A stretch of DNA of 64,000 nucleotides, from NCBI GenBank assembly GCA_020080175.1, contig JAGHQL010000059.1, positions 62,001 through 126,000 of the forward strand. Reading direction: 5' to 3'. The translations under genes were made by a program, and so were the position numbers. This document shows, one piece after another, positions 49,389 to 56,352 of this stretch (position 1 is its first letter; every line of letters starts with the position of its first letter). The notes beneath the pieces were generated by a model. The model made no database searches, was not told the DNA's origin, and saw only the letters and a list, made by a program, of their open reading frames with translations. The stretch is from Glutinoglossum americanum (taxonomy: Eukaryota; Ascomycota; Geoglossomycetes; Geoglossales; Geoglossaceae).

Positions 49389-50116
49389 ATGAATACAACG
49401 TCATCTATCTCGAGATGCTGTCTACGCTTTGCATCTGCAGCACAGAGAAGAAGCGTTACCGCTACAAGACCTATCCTGCACCAATCATGCAGAAATCTCA
49501 CATGGACCGCCGCATTACGACCACTGATTCTCGACTTCCTCTTACCACCTCCACAGTCAACATATATTAAATCAGGGACGCCTCGATATAACGTACGAAC
49601 TTCAACAGCAAAATGCAAACGACAATTCACATCCTCCGCTCCCCGACAAAAGGCATCCGCCACCATAAATCCCCGCCATGACGAGAACGGCAACGAAATG
49701 ACCATCGAAATCACCCCCCGTGCCTCAAACGTTCGTTCTTCCCTCCCCTACGCTACTTACAAAAATGAACTAATGGACCAACCAACTTCCGCTAGCGCCT
49801 CAAAGAAATCATGCAAGCCGACTCCAACCCTTCCCTCCTCCTCCGCGTAACAGTCGAGTCCGGCGGCTGCCACGGCTTCCAATATCTCATGTCCCTAACC
49901 GATTCGTCCTCCACCTCCCCAACAGACGACACCATCTTCGAGGCCCCCGACGGTACAGGCGCGAGGGTCGTGACGGACGAGTCGAGTCTGGAGCTGTTGA
50001 AGGGGAGTAAGATCGATTACACGATGGAGTTGATTGGGAGCCAATTCCGGATTGCAGATAATCCCAAAGCGACGAGCAGCTGTGGGTGTGGGACGAGTTT
50101 CGATATCCAGTTTTGA
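49389..50116 (+). CDS. ISA2: Mitochondrial iron-sulfur assembly protein Isa2
   Basis: Two exons (49389-49730, 49796-50116) give 220 residues. The first 85 residues are rich in Arg, Ser and Thr (ISRCCLRFASAAQRRSV, KRQFTSSAPRQK), a mitochondrial presequence. The A-type carrier domain begins MTIEITPRASNRLKEIM. It keeps the three metal-ligand cysteines: VESGGCHGFQY and the SSCGCGTSF end. GARVVTDESSLELLKGSKIDYTMELIGSQFRI lies between, with the Isa2-like spacing. Isa1, Isa2 and Iba57 mature [4Fe-4S] proteins such as aconitase and lipoate synthase in the matrix. The ATG at 49389 is chosen because it directly starts the targeting peptide; the upstream frame has no ATG. Confidence 0.93.
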
Positions 50117-51318
50117 TAGGATGGTGGTTGTGGCGGCTGTTGTGTTTAGCAAGATCTCTCACTTCCTCACCTGGGCCTGGGAGCATGCGGGCCCGCGGGC
50201 TAATTGAGAATGATAGATAGATAGATCACCGTCTATGGCTCTCATTGACGCTAGTTTAACCCTGCTAAACGAGATCCCTTACAAGATCCCATTCCGGACA
50301 TGACCACTAAAATTCACACACCACCCCTTCCCCTGTTCCCACAACACCAACACCGTCTAGCCAACCTCCCTGAAATCCCCAAACCCTCCCCTCTCACTCT
50401 TTCATCAAGCTTCTGCACCCATCGAGAACAGACCACACAGGATTCCCCCATTCAGATTCCCCAGGCCACTCCTTACAATCCCCGGGCACCCCTCTCCGCC
50501 GTCCTCCGGTGAACAACAAAGTTGCAGGCCTACGATTTCGCGGTGGTGGCAGGTCTAGCTGTAATGGAATAGGAGACACATGTTGCTAGTAGTATGGTAC
50601 GGGTAGAGATGGAGATATGTAGACAGTATTAAATTGGAATGTTTGATTGTATTTCCTTTAATTTCAGATCTAGACGGGAAGGGGAGGCCTTGATGATATA
50701 GTAGATACAAGGTTGGCCTTTGCAACTAGTTTGTCCCATCACGACGCTACTTATGCTCTGTAGCTCGTTAAGCCATAGAAGACGCGAATGCAAGCTGTCA
50801 GGATTCGCCATCATTCATTGGCTACACTTTATTCATTCATTCCCCAGCAATCTCTACTCTACCTATTTCTCATTTCCTGGACAAGGGGTATTGATATTCA
50901 ACACTGCCATCGACATGGCTCACGATAGCAGTTGTGAGTTCGTGGTCCTGCGGGTATGGATGTTGTAGGTGGAAGTTGATGCTTCACGTGCCTGATATGC
51001 CTGCTTCTGCTATGATATTCTGTAAACGGTCGTTCACTTCCTCGGTTCCGGAAGGTGAAGACAAGGTATTAGCGGTGGGACAGCTGGACGGCGGGATGGA
51101 AGACCCCGCCTTCCAACTGGCCAAGGTTTCACCTGGGCTGTGAAGCAGAGCAACCGAGTAAGTTACAGGGGAAACCCCTGCGCCTTCCAGCTCTACACAA
51201 TTCAAGCACCACCAAACATTAGACCCTAGATATCTGGAAAGGGGTATTTCAGCCCAACCCCACGACCGAAAGACCACACCAACCACGCCTCGTCATGGAC
51301 AAGCTACCCACACATATC
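50117..51318. other. Intergenic, 1.2 kb between convergent genes
   Basis: Holds a short GATA tract (near 50207-50224) and a C-rich segment near 50320-50480. Short open frames on both strands match nothing. A cryptic small gene near 50915 is possible, but its frame breaks almost at once. Confidence 0.45.
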
Positions 51319-52407
51319 TTAGCCGGTAACCATCGTAATATTGTCGGTAAAGATCCAGCTCGAAGCGCAGCCTGCTCCAATTTCAGAAGCGGAGGCGACA
51401 ATCCCAGATCCATCTCTGGGAAGAGGAATCTCGTTCCAACGGCCCTTGACATCCCCATCATCATCTAACTCTGGGCCACAATTCCCATGCTCTCCCCAGC
51501 CCCATGCCACGAGCTTACCATCCAGAGTCAGTCCTAGAGCATGTTCACTCCCAATTGCAATCTTCTGTAACTCCGGGATACCAGCAGGGGCGAGTTGGCC
51601 GTGGTCGTTCCGTCCCCAGGAGAGCAGACGATTATCCCCTTGGAGGACATATATACTTCCCCAACTCGCACCAATATCTTTCCAGCCCTGGATGGATTCT
51701 GGCATGGAAGACTTTACACCCCACTTGTTCAACCCGAGAACAAGGTGACGGCCAGCGACAGGGCTGCCAACCAGGTAGGTGAATTCACGTCCACAGGCCG
51801 CCCTATCGACTGGAAAGGTGATGCCTTCGATTTTCCTAGGGGACCAGACTATTGCAGCGGGTTCTCCAAGCTGGCCTTTACGGCCATCACCCCATCCATA
51901 GGCATCGCCGTTGGACAGAACAACGATTGTGTGTGCCATGCACGACGCAACGTCGATAATCTCAGTCCCCGCAGGAGGGAAATGCAAGATGCGCTGAGGC
52001 ACTCCGGAATGAATTACTCCATCACCCATGCCAAGCTGTCCCCTTGAACCTATGCCGCAACTATACACATCATTTTTATAAGAGATGAACGTTGTAGCTT
52101 CCCAAGTGGCTGCACACAGTTTGAACCCGTCGATGCCAAGGAGAGGTGACGTCTCCACTTTAATTCTTGCAAATACCGCCTCTGAGGGCATTGGCGTAGC
52201 GCCAAAGCCACATCTTCCACCCGCATTTTCTCCAGTTGCGAATGCACCGTTTGAGAATAAAACAACGGTGTGGTTTCCGCCGGCAGCGATCTTGACTGGT
52301 GGCTTATCGACAGTTACAGGCAATAAGCATTTAGTTGGGATAGATACATCTTCCTGATGCCCGAGACCAAGTTGTCCAGAGCCATTTGATCCAAATGAAT
52401 GCAGCAT
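51319..52407 (-). CDS. ATS1: RCC1-repeat protein, Ats1-like
   Basis: A single open frame of 362 codons. At least six RCC1-type beta-propeller units are visible: MLHSFGSNGSGQLGLGHQED, NGAFATGENAGGRCGFG, NDVYSCGIGSRGQLGMGDG, NGDAYGWGDGRKGQLGEP, NRLLSWGRNDHGQLAP and DGKLVAWGWGEHGNCGPE. Length and arrangement fit yeast Ats1, a cytosolic RCC1-like protein that partners with Kti11/Dph3 and supports diphthamide synthesis on EF-2 and Elongator-dependent tRNA wobble modification. It is too short for Prp20/RCC1 and lacks its basic N-terminus. It has no intron. It is divergent from RPL7, with 182 nt between start codons. Confidence 0.82.
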   Translation of the reverse strand: MLHSFGSNGSGQLGLGHQEDVSIPTKCLLPVTVDKPPVKIAAGGNHTVVLFSNGAFATGENAGGRCGFGATPMPSEAVFARIKVETSPLLGIDGFKLCAATWEATTFISYKNDVYSCGIGSRGQLGMGDGVIHSGVPQRILHFPPAGTEIIDVASCMAHTIVVLSNGDAYGWGDGRKGQLGEPAAIVWSPRKIEGITFPVDRAACGREFTYLVGSPVAGRHLVLGLNKWGVKSSMPESIQGWKDIGASWGSIYVLQGDNRLLSWGRNDHGQLAPAGIPELQKIAIGSEHALGLTLDGKLVAWGWGEHGNCGPELDDDGDVKGRWNEIPLPRDGSGIVASASEIGAGCASSWIFTDNITMVTG

Positions 52408-52589
52408 CGAGATCTCGGGGCGATGATCGTTAGATGCTTGGTGTCTTGAGCCTCAAGAAAACTCTTGGCGCTTTAGGGCTAATCTCGTGACCCACAATTT
52501 TGCAACTTCAGGAATTTCTATATTTTAACTTTGCTCGTGCCTGTCTACCACAACCATCGACGACGACGCGACCAACAATAATCGCCACG
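52408..52589. promoter_or_regulatory. Compact bidirectional promoter of ATS1 and RPL7
   Basis: This 182-nt region drives both genes. It holds CTTTAGGGCTAA near 52470, containing the telobox-like TTAGGG core often found before ribosomal-protein genes in filamentous ascomycetes. A pyrimidine- and A-rich stretch precedes the RPL7 ATG. The motif call is by eye. Confidence 0.4.
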
Positions 52590-54161
52590 ATGTCGCCCTC
52601 CAAGACGTACGCATTCTATACCACCCCTTCTTTTGCTGTCTCCAAGTTGGATTTGTCAAATATAGCCTAGTCCCGCTCGCTGGAGATGCTGTGCTTTTGG
52701 ATAATTCCTAGGCCACCAGCGCCAGCTCGATTCGTCCCAACAGGCTCTCTCAATCTCATCGTCCATTGCGACAGATTTGGTTAAGCTGAGCAATGGGGTC
52801 TTGGGGATGAAGAAATTTTCTTCTCCCTCAAATCAATTGTCGCACTCGACCGTGTTGGTATCCTGCTCCTTGCTAGGTACCAAGTAACGGTCAAAACATG
52901 TGCAGTGCAACCATCTTGAGATATTTCTCGAGGTCTTGTTGGATGAGTGTACTCCAATTGCATGAACAGATTTCTGTATCTTGGTGCAGATTCCAAGTAA
53001 TGTTATCAATCTCACCAATTAAATTCATATCGTCGAGTCTGCTCCGAGTCCGAGAATGCCGCACTGTGGCTGCAATTCTTCACTTGGCGTTAAGCTCCAT
53101 TGATACCTTCACCAAGCGAACAGGTTATTCTAACATGTTCATTTCGGGTGATATAGGACCGTACCAACCCACGACCATATCCTCGTGCCAGAGACCCTTC
53201 TAAAGAAGCGGAAGAGCCAGGAAAAGCAGCGCGAGGAACGCTCGGCCGAGCTCGCAAAGAAGAGAAAGGTGGGTACTAGTTTTTTCACGTAGCAGGGTGC
53301 GATTAGACGATAGTGATGATGACTACCATATTACGCGGCTAGTCCTTCGGGTCGATGTTGTCGCTTTGTTAACCATCTTTCGGGGCTGAGTCGTCAAGGG
53401 GGAGAATTACTTCTTGTTTTTCTATCATAGATATGAGCTCTCGCTAACATTATCTTTGCATACACTTAGGCTGCGAAGGAAAAGCGTGGCGTCATCTTCA
53501 AGCGCGCCGAGAAGTATGTCAAGGAATACCGTGATGCTGAACGGGAGAAAATCCGTCTCTCTCGTCTAAGCAAGAAGCAAGGTTCATTCTACGTTCCTGC
53601 TGAGCCCAAGCTGGTATTCGTGGTTCGCATCAAGGGGTACGTAGCTGAATTTCCACAAATCCTTTTTCCTCGCTGCTGACCGGCCGGGTTTGGATCTCCA
53701 GTATCAACAAGATCGCTCCCAAGCCCCGGAAAATTCTTCAACTGCTCCGTCTCTTGCAGATCAACAATGGCGTCTTTATTCGCCTTACCAAGGCCACGTT
53801 GGAGATGCTAAAGGTGGTTGAACCTTATATCGCCTATGGTTATCCCAATCTCAAGTCCGTCCGCGAACTCATTTACAAGCGCGGATATGGCAAGATCGAA
53901 AAGCAACGTATCCCACTCACCGATAACTCCCTTATTGAGGAGAACTTGGGCAAATACGGCATTGTGTGTATGGAGGATCTCATCCACGAGATCTTTACCG
54001 TTGGACCGAACTTCAAGCAGGCGAGCAACTTCCTATGGCCGTTCAAGCTGAGCAACCCTACTGGCGGCTTCCGGACGCGCAAGTTCAAGCATTTCGTTGA
54101 GGGTGGTGACTTGGGCAACCGAGAGGATGAGATTAACGGGCTGATTAGACAGATGAATTAA
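52590..54161 (+). CDS. RPL7: 60S ribosomal protein L7 (uL30)
   Basis: Four exons (52590-52606, 53157-53268, 53470-53636, 53702-54161) give 251 residues, the standard length. The basic N-terminal extension ([28 protein letters not shown]) precedes the uL30 fold: [34 protein letters not shown] and the following [13 protein letters not shown]. Then come [63 protein letters not shown] and [21 protein letters not shown]. It binds 25S rRNA in the large subunit. Intron 1 is 550 nt, the longest in the window, with a 17-nt first exon; long first introns after a tiny exon are common in fungal ribosomal-protein genes. Intron 2 carries a C/D-box snoRNA. Confidence 0.97.
53306..53395 (+). ncRNA. C/D-box snoRNA in RPL7 intron 2 (snR39/snR59-type guide)
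   Basis: Box C GTGATGA (53313-53319) and box D CTGA (53386-53389) are closed by a stem of GACGA (53306-53310) with TCGTC (53391-53395). Just before box D is ACCATCTTTCGGG (53372-53384), complementary over 13 nt to the conserved 25S rRNA sequence CCCGAAAGATGGT. The fifth-nucleotide rule points to the G of CCCG, equivalent to yeast Gm805. The adjacent A807 is the target of snR39 and snR59, which yeast encodes in introns of RPL7A and RPL7B. A degenerate C'-like CGATGTT lies at 53353-53359. The host gene, boxes, terminal stem and guide all agree. Confidence 0.87.
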
Positions 54162-54695
54162 GGCAGCTCACGTTCGAAGGGGTAGCTTACTAGAAATGCA
54201 GGCATTGTAATGCAGTTTTAGCAAGACCATGAGAATCAAAAGAGAACGAACAATTTTTTGAAATCCATTCCGCATCGAATTCATGATTCAAACCACGTAT
54301 ATTTTCGATTTCCACCTTGATAAAGCGAAACTATATCTACTCAGGTTTCGCGGGGCAAAGCGACATCCTTCAACCCTTAGTCTTATAGCAAGACCTACTC
54401 CGTTCCCCGCGATGATTTACGCAGCCCCTGTAGATATGTACAATTGACAAGGTAACAGTATTCTGCAGCCAGCTCACCCCAACTCCCACCCCTTTTTGGC
54501 GGGTGAGCACGCCGCCCTGTGATCGCGTGAGCGGGCATCCACTATCCGACTGACGCCGAAGCTCTGATTATTCCAGTGCCGCTTCAAGCGCTCTTGTCAC
54601 GTGTATCTCCACTGCGCGTCCACCCCTCGCGAGCAAAAATATCGGCGACATAAACCACAAACACAGCATACTCCACTTCCTCAACTCAAAGCAAA
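54162..54695. other. Intergenic between RPL7 and ARP6
   Basis: About 530 nt. The first half is the 3' flank of RPL7 (a TAAAGCG-rich and AT-rich part). The second half holds a CACGTG E-box-type palindrome near 54599, about 100 nt before the ARP6 start. No coding frame is seen. Confidence 0.5.
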
Positions 54696-56352
54696 ATGCC
54701 CCGTCAACCAAAACCGACAGAAAAGCCCCTTCCAGAACGCACCCTAATCCTCGACAATGGTGCTTATACTATCAAAGCAGGTTTTGCCTCCGACTTTCCT
54801 GATGTAGAGGACTGCCATTTGATACCCAACTGCATCGCGCGTGCCCGAGACAAGCGGATCTGGATAGGCGGACAACTAGAGCACTGCAAGGACTTTGGCG
54901 AGATGGCTTTCCGAAGACCGGTGGAGAAGGGATACTTGGTTAATTGGGAGGGTGAGAGGGAGATATGGTGTAATTCTTTCTTTGATGATGATGCAAAATT
55001 AAAGGTAGATATATATGGATATGTAGAATGGGAACTTTACAGAATCAAAAGGAAACTAAAACTTTGTTTGCAGTGTGACCCTCGGGAGACGAATCTTATC
55101 CTCACGGAAGCCCCTAATGCACCTGTCGCTCTACAGACGAACTGTGACCAGATGATCTTTGAGGAATTCGAATTTGCGTCATACTACCGATGTGTGGGTC
55201 TGTGAGTCCTATCCTTCCGAATAGCCGCCATTTCGGCCGTAACCTTGTATCGAGGGTTAACAAGTTCAAAAAGGCGCATCACTTAATACTTACAATGATA
55301 TCCCCTCACTCTTCGACGATTCCGCACGTCCGCCAGCTACTCCTCCATCTCCAGTCGAAACCCTGCTCCTAATAGACTCTGGCTTCTCTCATACGACTGT
55401 TACGCCACTAGTTCATGGCCGCCCTGTCCAGTCTGCTATCCGTCGCCTCGATATTGGAGGCAAACTCCTGACGAACTATCTAAAAGAATTAGTGTCGATA
55501 CGACACTACAACATGATCGACGAAACGCACCTCATGAATGAAGTTAAAGAGGCAGTGTGCTATGTCAGTCACGATTTTAAGGGTGATCTAGAGCGCACGT
55601 GGAAGGGTAGTGTAGGTGACCGACGGAAACCTGGGAGCGATGGAGTCGACATAGTCGTAGATTATGTGCTACCAGACTACAATACGCAGAAGGCAGGCTT
55701 TATGCGGTCTCATGACCCGTCGTTATCAGGTAAACTAAAGAAACTTGGGTCATCTGCGGGTGCCAATGGGGACGCTGGGTTCGAAGATTTCATGACGTTA
55801 GGGAACGAGAGGTTTACAGTGCCCGAGCTCCTCCTTAGCCCCGGGGACGTGGGCATGAAGCAAGCAGGGCTAGCAGAAGTCGTGATGCAAAGCCTGCGGG
55901 TGCTACCGATAGGGCTTTGGTCGGCTGTGCTGGCGAATGTGGTTGTGGTTGGCGGAAACGCAAAAGTTCCTGGATTTGTGGAGAGACTGTATGTGTCTCA
56001 CTCACCTAAAGCCTGATTGTTACCGAGACCGATGTGGTGCAGAGCTAACCGCTACCCGTCTACAGAGAAGCAGAGATTCGCTCCCTAGCACCCGCAGATT
56101 GTATTCTACGAGTTGCGAGGCCCGCAGAGTAAGTCACTTTCCAACAGGTCATCATTGTGTACCTCAATGTATTCTAGCTCGCTGTCCCTAACCACATCTA
56201 GTCCTATCAAATACGCATGGCTCGGAGGAGCGAATCTCGCGAAAAATCGGCCTATTTTGAAGGAAATGGTTGTGACTAGGCAAGAGTACCTAGAACATGG
56301 GGGCGGATGGGTAGCAAAGAAGTTCTCGGGCGGAGTTGGGGCGCCAAAGTAA
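54696..56352 (+). CDS. ARP6: Actin-related protein 6 (SWR1 complex subunit)
   Basis: Five exons (54696-55004, 55074-55197, 55274-55988, 56066-56128, 56202-56352) give 453 residues. The actin-fold start RTLILDNGAYTIKAGFA carries the first phosphate loop. CHLIPNCIARARDKRIWIG and RRPVEKGYLVNWEGEREIW are typical of Arp6. LLLIDSGFSHTTVTPLVHGRPV is the second phosphate loop, followed by GGKLLTNYLKELVSIRHYNMIDETHLMNEVKE and VCYVSHDFKGDLE. VVVVGGNAKVPGFVERLEAEIRSL and IKYAWLGGANLAKN close the fold. Arp6 with Swc6 helps SWR1 exchange H2A for H2A.Z in nucleosomes. Intron 2 starts GTCTGT and ends at an AAG, the only pair restoring GASLNTYNDIPSLF. The 3' side shows no close neighbour. Confidence 0.94.

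Follow-up and report, generated by a model that had tools for sequence, protein, structure and literature searches.

The second introns of the yeast genes RPL7A and RPL7B host the box C/D snoRNAs snR39 and snR59, which are assigned to A807 of the large-subunit (LSU) rRNA (PMC5295604). Methylation of the neighboring Gm805 is assigned to another guide, snR39b (PMC5344495). In chicken, the G805- and A807-type sites are likewise served by separate guides, according to the table of PMC2653536. RPL7 introns with snoRNAs of the snR39/snR59 type have already been published (PMC8476143), and one survey did not identify either snR39 or snR59 in C. parapsilosis and C. orthopsilosis.

Among filamentous fungi, the closest described system is CD47 of N. 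crassa, an intronic snoRNA listed with a 16/0 guide at box D, the target 26S-Gm785, and snR39b homologues (PMC2780460). The same table lists no guide for the A807 equivalent. Northern blotting and reverse transcription (N, R) are given for CD47 in its table entry, yet the gene also carries an asterisk, which according to the footnote marks genes that escaped experimental detection. As the asterisked genes CD38, CD42, CD47, and CD48 match snR61, snR52, snR39, and snR60, CD47 would, by elimination, be the snoRNA that Rfam calls snR39. In F. graminearum, five putative intronic snoRNAs, SnR39 among them, drop in level in a strain without Dbr1, while the lariats that bear them build up (PMC9606315).

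Here, we describe a candidate of this kind in a 64,000-nt stretch of Glutinoglossum americanum DNA (the window). We read it, with a probability of about 0.87, as an intron-encoded RPL7 C/D snoRNA of the snR39/snR59 lineage that guides methylation of the Gm805 equivalent.

A box C/D snoRNA in the second intron of RPL7

The RPL7 gene in the window is intact and complete (Table 1). Its product contains the Pfam domains PF08079 (Ribosomal_L30_N) and PF00327 (Ribosomal_L30), and its top match among solved structures is 60S ribosomal protein L7 (PDB 7r81 chain I1, E 2.9e-136), from a structure that we take to be that of N. crassa. The gene is flanked upstream by a gene for an RCC1-repeat protein (51319-52452, minus strand) and downstream by at least 2 pieces of actin-family coding sequence (54654-56013, plus strand). 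Relatives of RPL7 were also sought among viral contigs (18 stretches) and genome contigs (165 stretches), none of which was confirmed.

The putative snoRNA starts 37 nt past the 5' splice site of intron 2 and ends 74 nt short of the 3' splice site. The locus thus corresponds to the fungal snR39/snR59 locus in lying in the second intron of RPL7, as in yeast, where introns are likened by ordinal number and not by aligned position. The element has the sequence features expected of a box C/D snoRNA: a box C of the form RUGAUGA and a box D of the form CUGA near its ends, a short terminal stem of 5 Watson-Crick pairs that joins them, and, beside box D, an rRNA guide within the usual 10-21 nt, with all 13 of its nucleotides paired. 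A single G separates the guide from box D. The first-pass annotation had placed a C/D snoRNA with these boxes, stem, and guide at 53306-53395 within RPL7 intron 2; all of these elements are present, its coordinates are exact, and the boxes, stem, and guide lie within 53269-53469. An overlapping ATGATGA at 53316 was considered as an alternative box C and rejected, as the stem would then be reduced to 1 pair. At the place of the possible hairpin between boxes D' and C', the Rfam snR39 consensus reads GC(aauauu)GC.

Table 1. Features of the RPL7 locus in the window, and the snR60 orthologue found in the same genome.
Feature	Position	Strand	Remarks
RPL7 (uL30) host gene	52590..54161	+	4 exons, 251 aa, single open frame
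RPL7 exons	52590-52606, 53157-53268, 53470-53636, 53702-54161	+	
RPL7 intron 2	53269..53469	+	201 nt, GT...AG
Box C/D snoRNA, snR39/snR59 locus type	53306..53395	+	~90 nt; boxes, stem, guide; Rfam snR39 score below cut-off
Terminal stem, 5' arm GACGA	53306..53310	+	5 Watson-Crick pairs with 53391-53395
Box C, GTGATGA	53313..53319	+	Read from sequence
Likely box D', CTAG	53339..53342	+	Putative; common to Rfam snR39 consensus
CCTTCGGG, possible CC(UUCG)GG hairpin between D' and C'	53344..53351	+	Putative; from sequence and Rfam alignment
Likely box C', ATGTTGT	53355..53361	+	Putative; common to Rfam snR39 consensus
D guide ACCATCTTTCGGG	53372..53384	+	13 nt, complementary to LSU rRNA CCCGAAAGAUGGU; C53381 = D+5
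Box D, CTGA	53386..53389	+	Read from sequence
Terminal stem, 3' arm TCGTC	53391..53395	+	Pairs with 53306-53310
snR60 orthologue, same genome	L045 1501-1605 (G000 contig C59:47084-47188)		52.4 bits, above cut-off

Predicted target of the guide

The guide ACCATCTTTCGGG is the exact complement of CCCGAAAGAUGGU, a sequence that both the Rfam eukaryotic LSU consensus and a 28S rRNA stretch (L026, see below) contain. Searches of the assembly, one of them run without a positive control, did not turn up rDNA of the organism itself; the rRNA target is therefore deduced from conserved eukaryotic sequence. The position at D+5, C53381, is paired with the G of CCCGAAAG. We equate this G with yeast Gm805, since Gm785 and Am797 of N. 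crassa (PMC2780460) lie 12 nt apart, as do Gm805 and Am817 of yeast (PMC5344495). Both the 13-nt match to conserved LSU rRNA (13/13) and the spacing that points at the Gm805 equivalent had been proposed in the first-pass annotation, and both hold. By function, the snoRNA is thus predicted to act as snR39b does, its D+5 position lying opposite the G805 equivalent and not, as would be required of snR39 or snR59, opposite the A807 equivalent. The D+5 rule reads sensibly elsewhere in this genome, as the guides of the snR60 orthologue, on visual inspection, are placed for the Am817 and Gm908 equivalents.

An additional 8-nt complementarity to the same rRNA site, at 53346-53353, was considered as a second guide in a check that covered the 517-nt LSU stretch. 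It was rejected because it overlaps the possible UUCG hairpin and because ~0.65 such 8-nt matches are expected by chance.

The 28S rRNA stretch at L026 (3004-3595, 419.9 bits) is eukaryotic in sequence and lies in a bacterial contig of 1.16 Mb, from Mangrovicoccus ximenensis, where contamination or a chimera seems likely. A short stretch resembling eukaryotic LSU rRNA was also seen by eye near one end of an IMG/VR viral contig (L014 3332-3356 and flank), which is probably a chimera of this stretch with other sequence.

Chance controls

As a control, the window was resampled 100 times with a first-order Markov model, and both strands were scanned for a box C and a box D separated by 50-100 nt, with a stem of at least 4 pairs (G-U counted as a pair) and a guide of at least 10 nt to the 517-nt LSU stretch. 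The full combination was found once in the real window and in 0 of the 100 resamplings. With the guide left out, the window contained 2 combinations of boxes and stem against a mean of 1.18 in the resamplings, a difference that is not significant. As boxes and stem alone arise by chance about once per 64 kb, it is the guide that carries the case. The same frequency is what would favor a chance assembly of motifs within the intron; given that no resampling yielded the guide as well, and that yeast and other fungi carry such a snoRNA at this very place, in RPL7 intron 2, we regard coincidence as having a negligible probability.

C/D snoRNAs are weakly structured. Folding energy lends no support to the candidate, as most shuffled sequences were more stable than the RNA itself (z 1.40; 190 of 200 shuffles folded at least as well).

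In the whole assembly of 25,765,983 bases, the 13-nt guide occurs at 2 places. The copy outside RPL7 (L001) sits where an open frame begins, one that by eye resembles a WW-domain protein, and was put down to chance. The 11-nt core of the guide occurs at 16 places, all of which were inspected, with boxes C and D in position at 1 of these, RPL7 intron 2. A search of viral contigs for the 18-nt guide plus box D gave no matches.

Comparison with Rfam family models

Rfam snR39 (RF01197) aligned to the element from end to end (model positions 1-95), with a score of 25.3 bits (E 0.34). A covariance-model search had been proposed as a check on the annotation, and its outcome was mixed: the full-length snR39 alignment speaks for the assignment, but 25.3 bits is below the gathering cut-off of 40 bits. 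The element shares with the snR39 consensus the motifs CUAG and AUGUUGU and an identical 18-nt 3' block. Among the 55 candidates scored in the assembly, the RPL7 locus was the best match to RF01197, followed by one of 20.4 bits. Matches below the cut-off were also found in 8 of the 14 control genomes, every one of the eight that were named being a bacterium or archaeon. The RF01197 score is therefore no proof by itself; that comes from location and guide.

When the whole window was scanned against Rfam at gathering level, no family was listed. The model of the SNORD2/snR39b family, RF01299, did not match within 50000-56000 at E up to 5. Across the assembly, at E up to 10, it gave 2 weak matches among the candidates scored (61 of 3524), neither of them at the RPL7 locus, which thus falls outside this family model. 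The weak matches L012 and L013 for RF01197 (inspected as regions L024 and L025), and L043 (inspected in part) and L044 for RF01299, were not judged to be snoRNAs.

A score under the Rfam cut-off is also what might be expected of a decayed or inactive relic of the ancestral RPL7-intron snoRNA, which would be recognizable in the DNA but no longer processed. However, boxes, stem, and the 13-nt guide are intact while the spacers diverge from the Rfam consensus, and there is RNA-level evidence for counterparts in Z. tritici, F. graminearum, and N. crassa (PMC6620828, PMC9606315, PMC2780460). We consider a relic very improbable; judged from its sequence, the C/D snoRNA at 53306-53395 is real and probably functional.

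The A807 equivalent and the question of a target switch

The first-pass annotation had added that yeast snR39 and snR59 reside in the introns of RPL7A and RPL7B and act on A807, in agreement with PMC5295604 and PMC5344495. From this it had suggested that the modified nucleotide may have shifted at this locus, or that both sites may be served. The first suggestion was not borne out by the comparisons made: the spacing is no different in the Rfam snR39 consensus, where four G likewise separate the guide C from box D, and N. crassa CD47 was given the Gm805 equivalent as its target already in 2009 (PMC2780460). The spacing of the RF01197 consensus thus fits Gm805 and is at odds with the assignment of yeast snR39 and snR59 to A807. 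The second found no positive evidence.

If the snoRNA departed from the D+5 rule, it might modify the A807 equivalent, or the G805 and A807 equivalents together. In support of this, its position in the host gene is the same as that of yeast snR39 and snR59, which are assigned to A807 (PMC5295604); neither the patterns tried here nor the N. crassa table (PMC2780460) yielded another A807 guide; and guides for two sites two positions apart do exist, such as snR48, which serves G2791 and G2793 (PMC5389607). Box D, however, is a canonical, terminal CUGA with a stem, whereas the double-site yeast guides of PMC5389607 use non-consensus C'/D' motifs, and CD47 is assigned solely to Gm785 in the table of PMC2780460. 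Action on the A807 equivalent is therefore unlikely in our view, and guidance to the Gm805 equivalent remains the preferred reading.

A second guide to either site was sought throughout the assembly. The pattern ATCTTTCG-N0-4-CTGA was found at 25 places, compared with 7 for the reversed control. All 25 contexts were inspected, including the snoRNA in the window and all 6 places with the one-base, A807-type spacing, and no snoRNA context accounts for the excess. Apart from the snoRNA itself, an exact RTGATGA lies upstream at one place (L009/L020); there it abuts the 8-nt match, fits no box D or stem, and has no Rfam match. At two others (L092 and L094), a loose box C accompanies guides of 8 and 9 nt, and all three places were rejected. 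With up to 2 mismatches allowed, the A807-type pattern occurred at 42 places (55 for the reversed control), all of which were inspected; at three of them (L077, L078, and L083), a box C or loose box C lies upstream, but the guide is mismatched each time, and these were judged to be chance matches. A second guide for the A807 equivalent was thus not found in the assembly with these patterns, which leave out G-U-rich and more mismatched guides and odd D' boxes.

That no A807 guide turned up, either with the patterns used here or among those tabulated for N. crassa, would fit a switch at the RPL7 locus. In such a scenario, the RPL7-intron snoRNA of Pezizomycotina would be the sole guide left for this rRNA stretch and would serve the Gm805 equivalent, the ancient Am807 mark or its guide having been lost, and a change of two nucleotides in the spacing from guide to box would have swapped the sites. 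Because the snR39 consensus spacing equals that of the RPL7 copy, in a comparison that rests on the consensus and not on the yeast sequences, we offer this target shift tentatively and hold it to be rather doubtful. If true, it would mean that one intron switched between two neighboring, deeply conserved methylation sites. The testable questions it raises are which guide, if any, filamentous fungi have for the A807 equivalent, and whether the nucleotide served from the RPL7 intron switched between yeasts and Pezizomycotina.

Counterparts in other filamentous fungi

A further counterpart may be found in the wheat pathogen Z. tritici. ZtsRNA3 is a 22-nt RNA with predicted wheat NAC-domain targets, whose expression is kept in a Dicer mutant (PMC6620828). 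Compared with the window at 53370-53391, it is identical at 20 of 22 bases and has the same spacing; the next best place in the window has 16 identities. As it holds the guide, the one-base spacer, and CTGA, ZtsRNA3 very probably represents the 3' part of the orthologous snoRNA of Z. tritici, whose spacing likewise suits Gm805. By this likeness, a candidate cross-kingdom silencer of a wheat pathogen would probably be a snoRNA fragment, an origin that would fit its expression without Dicer. The main text of PMC6620828 does not use the word "snoRNA", and a literature search for the literal ZtsRNA3 sequence returned, besides that paper, one on plastid rRNA.

Comparison with known systems

The host intron, the likely C'/D' motifs, and the alignment as a whole indicate that the snoRNA belongs to the RPL7-intron snR39/snR59 lineage, while the spacing of its guide suggests that it acts like snR39b and N. 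crassa CD47. As it fails both the Rfam cut-off and the A807 definition, we class it not as snR39 in the strict sense but as a C/D snoRNA of the RPL7 intron whose guide is of the snR39b type. In the pathway that we envisage from yeast and Fusarium, the RPL7 pre-mRNA would be spliced, and the intron lariat would be debranched and trimmed to the protein-protected snoRNA. The terminal C/D motif would bind the snoRNP core proteins, as is established for the class. The guide, whose complementarity is exact, would then pair with CCCGAAAGAUGGU of the 25S rRNA in the cell, and fibrillarin would methylate the 2'-O of the rRNA nucleotide that pairs five bases upstream of box D, which under the D+5 rule is the Gm805 equivalent. 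As guide snoRNAs in RPL7 introns are known in fungi, the find is real but largely ordinary; it adds a member missed by the Rfam cut-off to a pairing of host gene and snoRNA that is kept in many fungi.

The snoRNA thus resembles S. cerevisiae snR39 and snR59 in its place in the second intron of RPL7, in the rRNA stretch it addresses, and in aligning with the whole length of the Rfam snR39 model, but differs in that theirs are assigned to A807, two nucleotides off (PMC5295604, PMC5344495). With S. cerevisiae snR39b and vertebrate snR39B (SNORD2, RF01299) it shares the predicted target, the Gm805 equivalent; it is, however, missed by RF01299, and the chicken host gene is EIF4A2 (PMC2653536). F. 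graminearum SnR39, likened here by name, is also intronic, bears the same family name, and depends on Dbr1 for its level (PMC9606315), whereas the Z. tritici counterpart is known, in PMC6620828, solely as a 22-nt small RNA. N. crassa CD47 is likewise an intronic C/D snoRNA with a D guide for the Gm805 equivalent (Gm785), but is 75 nt long with a 16-bp guide, compared with ~90 nt and 13 bp here, and has a host gene that the table of PMC2780460 leaves unnamed.
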